From Yarrowia lipolytica (lineage: Eukaryota > Ascomycota > Dipodascomycetes > Dipodascales): DNA of 64,000 nt. The notes below the pieces were generated by a model. It was given only the letters and a program-made list of their open reading frames with translations. It was not told the origin of the DNA and did not search any database. Both the position numbers and the translations under genes were made by a program. The stretch is from positions 1,302,001 to 1,366,000 of the forward strand of contig NC_090775.1 of assembly GCF_001761485.1 (NCBI RefSeq). The letters are read 5' to 3'. Of the stretch, positions 21,006-21,775 are shown one piece after another (the first letter of the stretch is position 1; each line of letters opens with the position of its first letter).

Positions 21006-21542
21006 GTGTTTCTAGCTTATATATATGGTAAAACGGTTAATTCGGTAAAAATTGTTATTTTTTTATATTTATTCTTCGGAGTAGTTTGTCAATTATTCAT
21101 TTTCTTTCAACTGGATCAACCCTAAGAATTTTCTTCTTTACCATACGTGTCCATGCACACTTTAACCTAATTACCACCCATTGTTTATTCAGCCACACAA
21201 GTAAAATCCGTGCTAATGGCCGCGCCATGTACGATATGACGGTGACTATAAGACCCTCCAGAGCGTGAATACAAGACCCTCTGGAAGCCAGAAGTGCTAA
21301 TTTCATCATTGGTTTGTGGTTGCGAGTATGTGAGTTACCAGAGCTCCAATGGCTTACTTGTACTTGTACTTGTACTTGTACTTGTACTTGTACTTGTACT
21401 TGTACTTGTACTTGTACTTGTACTTGTACTTGTTGGTACGGTACTTTTTTTTATATATATTTATTAACATTTATTGAGTCAAGATCAACGAATTTCCACT
21501 ACTCGTACTTGTAGCTACTTGAACTTGCCATTAAGACTCAGA
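21006..21542. other. Convergent intergenic region with hexamer repeat
   Basis: This 537-base spacer lies between the 3' ends of EFB1 and the pheromone-like gene. It holds AT-rich 3'-end sequence (ttatatatatgg just after the EFB1 stop) and the TACTTG array listed separately. Confidence 0.55.
21355..21432. repeat. (TACTTG)13 tandem hexamer
   Basis: Thirteen perfect head-to-tail copies of TACTTG span 78 bases. The same word occurs singly many times in spacers of this window. It is not the Yarrowia telomere repeat (GGGTTAGTCA). Confidence 0.95.
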
Positions 21543-21706
21543 TCAGGCGATGACGCAGGAAGAAGGCTGGAAGGTTCGGTAACCTGTGTTAGTAAGGGAG
21601 ACGAACAAGATGCTGCTTTCGCACGATACTCACCACCAACAATAGTGACGTTGGAGTTGACTCGGTAGGAGTCGGTGCCGTAGTCTCGGGGAATTGCTTT
21701 GCTCAT
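21543..21706 (-). CDS. Candidate a-factor-type lipopeptide mating pheromone precursor
   Basis: Two small exons, 21706-21634 and 21583-21543, are joined by a 50-base intron with a GTGAGTAT donor and TTACTAACACAG end, the standard intron form of this genome. The joined frame encodes 37 residues ending in SSCVIA and a stop. CVIA is a CaaX farnesylation box, identical to that of S. cerevisiae a-factor (MFA1 36 residues, MFA2 38 residues, both ending ACVIA). There is no signal peptide, as expected for precursors exported by a Ste6-type transporter. The C-terminal part is GGYRTFQPSSC plus VIA; C34 would be the farnesylated, carboxymethylated residue after removal of VIA. A TATA box lies 63 bases upstream. 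Without splicing the frame runs on to 63 residues with no CaaX box. The pheromone role is inferred from length, CaaX box and gene structure; the mature N-terminus cannot be predicted. Confidence 0.78.
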
Positions 21707-21768
21707 TGTTGTAGTGTAGGTAGTTGTTACTGTTGTTTGATGCAGATCTAGAAGGACTTGAGACGGTC

Positions 21769-21775
21769 TTATATA
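21769..21775 (-). promoter_or_regulatory. TATA box of the pheromone-like gene
   Basis: TATATAA on the minus strand lies 63 bases before the ATG, followed by an A/C-rich leader without other ATGs in a good context. The spacing matches typical yeast promoters and supports a real transcript. Confidence 0.6.

Follow-up and report, generated by a model that had tools for sequence, protein, structure and literature searches.

Within the window (the whole 64,000-nucleotide stretch of Yarrowia lipolytica DNA that was analysed), a small spliced frame lies on the minus strand at 21706-21543, in which exons of 73 and 41 bases and an intron of 50 bases give the 37-residue peptide MSKAIPRDYGTDSYRVNSNVTIVGGYRTFQPSSCVIA (Table 1). 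The gene is laid out as ATG...G/GTGAGT...TACTAACACAG/GT...TGA, where slashes mark the exon boundaries. The precursor is short (under 100 residues) and carries the C-terminal CaaX box CVIA once spliced; in the unspliced reading the frame is open across the intron, but the CVIA end is absent. Asn17 and Asn19 stand ahead of VTIVGGYRTFQPSSC, a possible processing site at which cleavage might be expected by analogy with S. cerevisiae processing. No Pfam family matched the peptide, and a search of the public protein set for its homologs returned no candidate. With regard to the intron, the pattern GTGAGT, 20-45 bases and CTAACNCAG occurred 4 times in the window, compared with 0.02 times on average over 100 shuffles, and the intron thus appears typical of this genome.

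Table 1. Features of the window gene, and its intact and decayed copies elsewhere in the genome.
Feature	Location	Strand	Description
TATA box	21768..21775	minus	TATATAAG; read from sequence
Upstream word	21734..21742	minus	CATCAAACA; about 33 bases after TATA box start; by eye
Exon 1	21634..21706	minus	73 nt; ATG at 21706; residues 1-24 and first base of Gly25; in frame with the three intronless paralogs
Intron	21584..21633	minus	50 bases, phase 1, GTGAGT...TACTAACACAG; missing at the same place in the 3 intact paralogs and 2 relics
Exon 2	21543..21583	minus	41 nt including stop; rest of Gly25, YRTFQPSSCVIA, stop; CaaX box CVIA
C5 copy	C5:1046998-1047108	minus	intact, full-length, intronless
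C6a copy	C6:2129785-2129895	plus	intact, full-length, intronless
C6b copy	C6:2134462-2134572	plus	intact, full-length, intronless
Relic	C6:754429-754503		weak row, E 4.5e-6; intronless, intact frame lost
Relic	C3:3133215-3133271		weak row, E 0.045; intronless, intact frame lost

The first-pass annotation had placed a TATA box 63 bases upstream of the gene; the box is present and occupies the interval 62-69 bases before the ATG. The word CATCAAACA, located between this box and the ATG, is probably a transcript-start or 5' leader element. The EFB1-OPT neighbourhood named in the same annotation was borne out: a convergent plus-strand gene for EF-1 beta (EF1_GNE match) flanks the window gene, and on the opposite side, some 3 kb off, there is an OPT transporter. 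A perfect hexamer microsatellite (TACTTG, 13.2 copies), which is perhaps variable between strains, was observed at 21355-21433, ~110 bases past the stop of the gene.

A protein search of the genome (20.5 Mb, 6 contigs) with the window-gene peptide gave seven rows, comprising three full-length uninterrupted copies (E values of 2.4e-20, 4.0e-19 and 4.0e-19), one row for each window-gene exon, and two weak rows; as this is a repeated family, copy counts from the search are lower bounds. We found that the three intact paralogs, designated C5, C6a and C6b, encode the same peptide as the window gene with 0 or 1 residue different and have the same CVIA end without splicing. All three read on uninterrupted across the site of the window intron, and thus the splice sites are confirmed to the base by homology. 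The gene model originally proposed (exons of 73 and 41 bases, a 50-base intron and a 37-residue product ending in CVIA) was reproduced, its junction being exact in the intronless paralogs. In total, a near-identical peptide is encoded by several genes, with at least four intact copies (0-1 residue differences) and two relics found. Judged by sequence, the window gene is one of the four intact copies found and the sole intron-bearing one among them. The C6a and C6b copies share one orientation, are separated by 4.7 kb and both have Ala8, yet 14 of their 111 coding bases differ. Besides, all three intact paralogs were seen by eye to have a TATA-like element ahead of the leader, and the word CATCAAACA recurs in the C5 and C6a copies, whereas C6b has CCAAACA instead (also by eye). 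Between -600 and -100, three 7-mers and no 8-mers are common to all four copies, and the counts of ATTGT-type sites in the nearest 600 bases are 5 for C5, 5 for C6a, 0 for C6b and 2 for the window copy.

The window copy differs from each of the C5, C6a and C6b copies at 18 of 111 coding bases, with only 0, 1 and 1 residue changes, respectively; third positions account for 18 of the 18 differences from C5 and for 17 of 18 from each C6 copy. No other intact copy is as divergent: the remaining three differ among themselves by 9, 11 and 14 bases. All six pairs of copies show at most one residue change, and residue 8 (Asp or Ala) is the sole variable position. Residues 26-37, encoded by exon 2, are the same in all four intact copies, differences there being synonymous only. 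In a neutral simulation (3000 runs per pair, no selection, codon bias ignored), a mean of 11.7 residue changes was obtained for the window copy and C5, compared with the 0 observed. So few residue changes were never reached for 4 of the 6 pairs; for the remaining two, which have 11 and 9 differences, the values were 0.003 and 0.01. We infer from this pattern that the spliced frame, including the CaaX end and exon 2, is under purifying selection. The near-wholly synonymous divergence of the window copy thus indicates that it is constrained as a spliced protein-coding gene.

Several features of the gene are shared with known a-factor genes. MFA1 and MFA2 of S. cerevisiae encode precursors of 36-38 residues that lack a signal peptide and end in CVIA, and, as in the present case, there is more than one gene; unlike the window gene, neither is known to contain an intron. 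In 2023, Srikant, Gaudet and Murray reportedly found that mating of Y. lipolytica was blocked when the four related genes were all deleted in cells of the a mating type. The reported number equals that of the intact copies found here, and the window locus is therefore judged to be one of the published genes. Literature searches, covering papers other than the 2023 Srikant et al. text, found none containing any of three words of the peptide and none describing the window locus or its intron. Passages of PMC7243462 report, citing a 2019 thesis, that a farnesylated pheromone of Y. lipolytica was found by a bioinformatic approach and experimentally validated; according to these passages, the pheromone itself is already known. 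They further state that the Y. lipolytica a-factor has no similarity to that of S. cerevisiae and is of different length, that MATA is the a-like mating type, and that MATA cells deleted for ste6 mate very poorly. In Saccharomycopsis fibuligera, MFA1 and MFA2 are also two genes for small CaaX peptides with near-identical products, but they form a tandem cluster on one chromosome, and no intron is mentioned in the passages of PMC5106798 that describe them. Similarly, several highly similar a-factor copies per genome are described for Huntiella in part of PMC10182648, where, in contrast to the window gene, they are stated to be intronless. MFa candidates are also mentioned for Blastobotrys adeninivorans in a passage of PMC4022394.

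We estimate a probability of roughly 0.95 that the window gene encodes an a-factor-type (lipopeptide) mating pheromone precursor of Y. lipolytica, as one of four intact genes of this kind, of which it alone has an intron. The a-factor-type identity put forward in the first-pass annotation is supported by the 37-residue length, the CaaX end, the near-identical copies, their near-wholly synonymous divergence, and the occurrence in the genome of a Ste3-type receptor and of CaaX-processing families. That annotation had, however, regarded the gene as the pheromone precursor of Yarrowia; it holds up as a precursor gene but not as the sole one, as four intact copies, the other three intronless, and two relics were found. 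Coincidence of splice sites and CaaX end in a chance ORF might be considered, since the exons are short and a four-residue motif could occur randomly, but the same 37 residues, plus or minus one, recur without an intron at three other loci (E down to 2.4e-20), from which the window copy diverges almost wholly at synonymous sites. The three intact paralogs and this synonymous divergence rule a chance ORF out, and we regard its probability as negligible.

A conserved small prenylated peptide with a non-mating role, for example one anchored to an internal membrane, would also fit the CaaX end and small size, which are generic. However, the presence of several near-identical CaaX peptides this long is typical of a-factor genes, as in S. 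cerevisiae. Passages of PMC5106798 describe the same for Saccharomycopsis, and the validated farnesylated pheromone of Y. lipolytica was itself found via such features, as part of PMC7243462 relates; a non-mating role is accordingly very unlikely. A different possibility concerns activity and agrees with the preferred reading on gene identity: the window copy may be an a-factor gene by descent that is now silent, the pheromone being derived from the three intronless copies only. Redundancy can make a single copy dispensable, decay has already occurred in two others, and the window copy is the most divergent (18 differences to each of the others, versus 9, 11 and 14 among them). Against this, across both exons its 18 substitutions left 0 residue changes relative to C5 and 1 relative to each C6 copy, and neither its splice signals nor its TATA box shows damage. 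A silent gene would have drifted, and we consider silence of the window copy unlikely.

If the window gene is an active a-factor gene, as we favor, its transcript would be spliced, the spliced precursor would be farnesylated on Cys34, VIA would be removed and the cysteine then carboxymethylated. The N-terminal part may be trimmed, perhaps after Asn19 to leave 15 residues, which is a guess by analogy with S. cerevisiae. The lipopeptide would then be exported via Ste6 and recognized by cells of the opposite mating type through their Ste3-type receptor. A survey of the genome at the family level found that a Ste3-type receptor and CaaX-processing families co-occur with the window gene. Specifically, there were one STE2-type and one STE3-type receptor match, two ICMT rows (one just at its cut-off), one match to the Ste24-type CaaX-protease N-domain (Peptidase_M48_N) and four prenyltransferase-family (Prenyltrans) rows, two of which are adjacent and probably represent one gene. 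The MAT alpha-box (PF04769) had no match in this genome; it had none in any of 14 control genomes either, and the search is therefore uninformative on mating type. As the CaaX end of the window copy is made only by splicing, this copy could be a distinct regulated member of the set whose pheromone output is switched by splicing, which the three intronless copies do not require; we rate this idea as improbable. If true, a set of otherwise equivalent copies with and without an intron would provide a natural experiment for studying how introns are lost or gained and how splicing can control a mating signal. More generally, genes for lipopeptide pheromones are very short and difficult to detect, and this case shows that splice-aware reading combined with paralogs in the same genome can locate and confirm one. 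Also, the positions given for the six copies (four intact, two relics), with one intron/no-intron contrast at an identical position, should be useful for studies of intron loss or gain and of pheromone dosage.

As to how the intron difference arose, regions of 10-20 kb surrounding the copies were compared by blastn, and matches among the intact copies were confined to about the transcript. For example, C5 and C6a aligned over 170 columns, beginning 43 bases ahead of the ATG and ending 12 bases beyond the stop. Such transcript-limited homology is as expected of mRNA-derived copies and suggests that the intronless copies may have arisen by retroposition. However, a TATA-like element precedes the leader in each intact copy, whereas an mRNA copy would be without one, and the retention of this element ahead of a conserved leader suggests instead that DNA duplication was followed by intron loss or gain. 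Flank matches shared by the two relics, which favor DNA duplication for that pair, likewise stand against retroposition. As for whether an intron was lost or gained, divergence is greatest for the window copy, and both relics are intronless as well; a tree of six sequences (four intact copies and two relics) had low supports of 0.25, 0.32 and 0.55. The two intronless relics are evidence of turnover of pheromone gene copies. Their flanks match each other beyond the gene over 59 and 61 bp (blastn, E values of 2.8e-4 and 0.001), which suggests that they may derive from an old shared duplicated segment.
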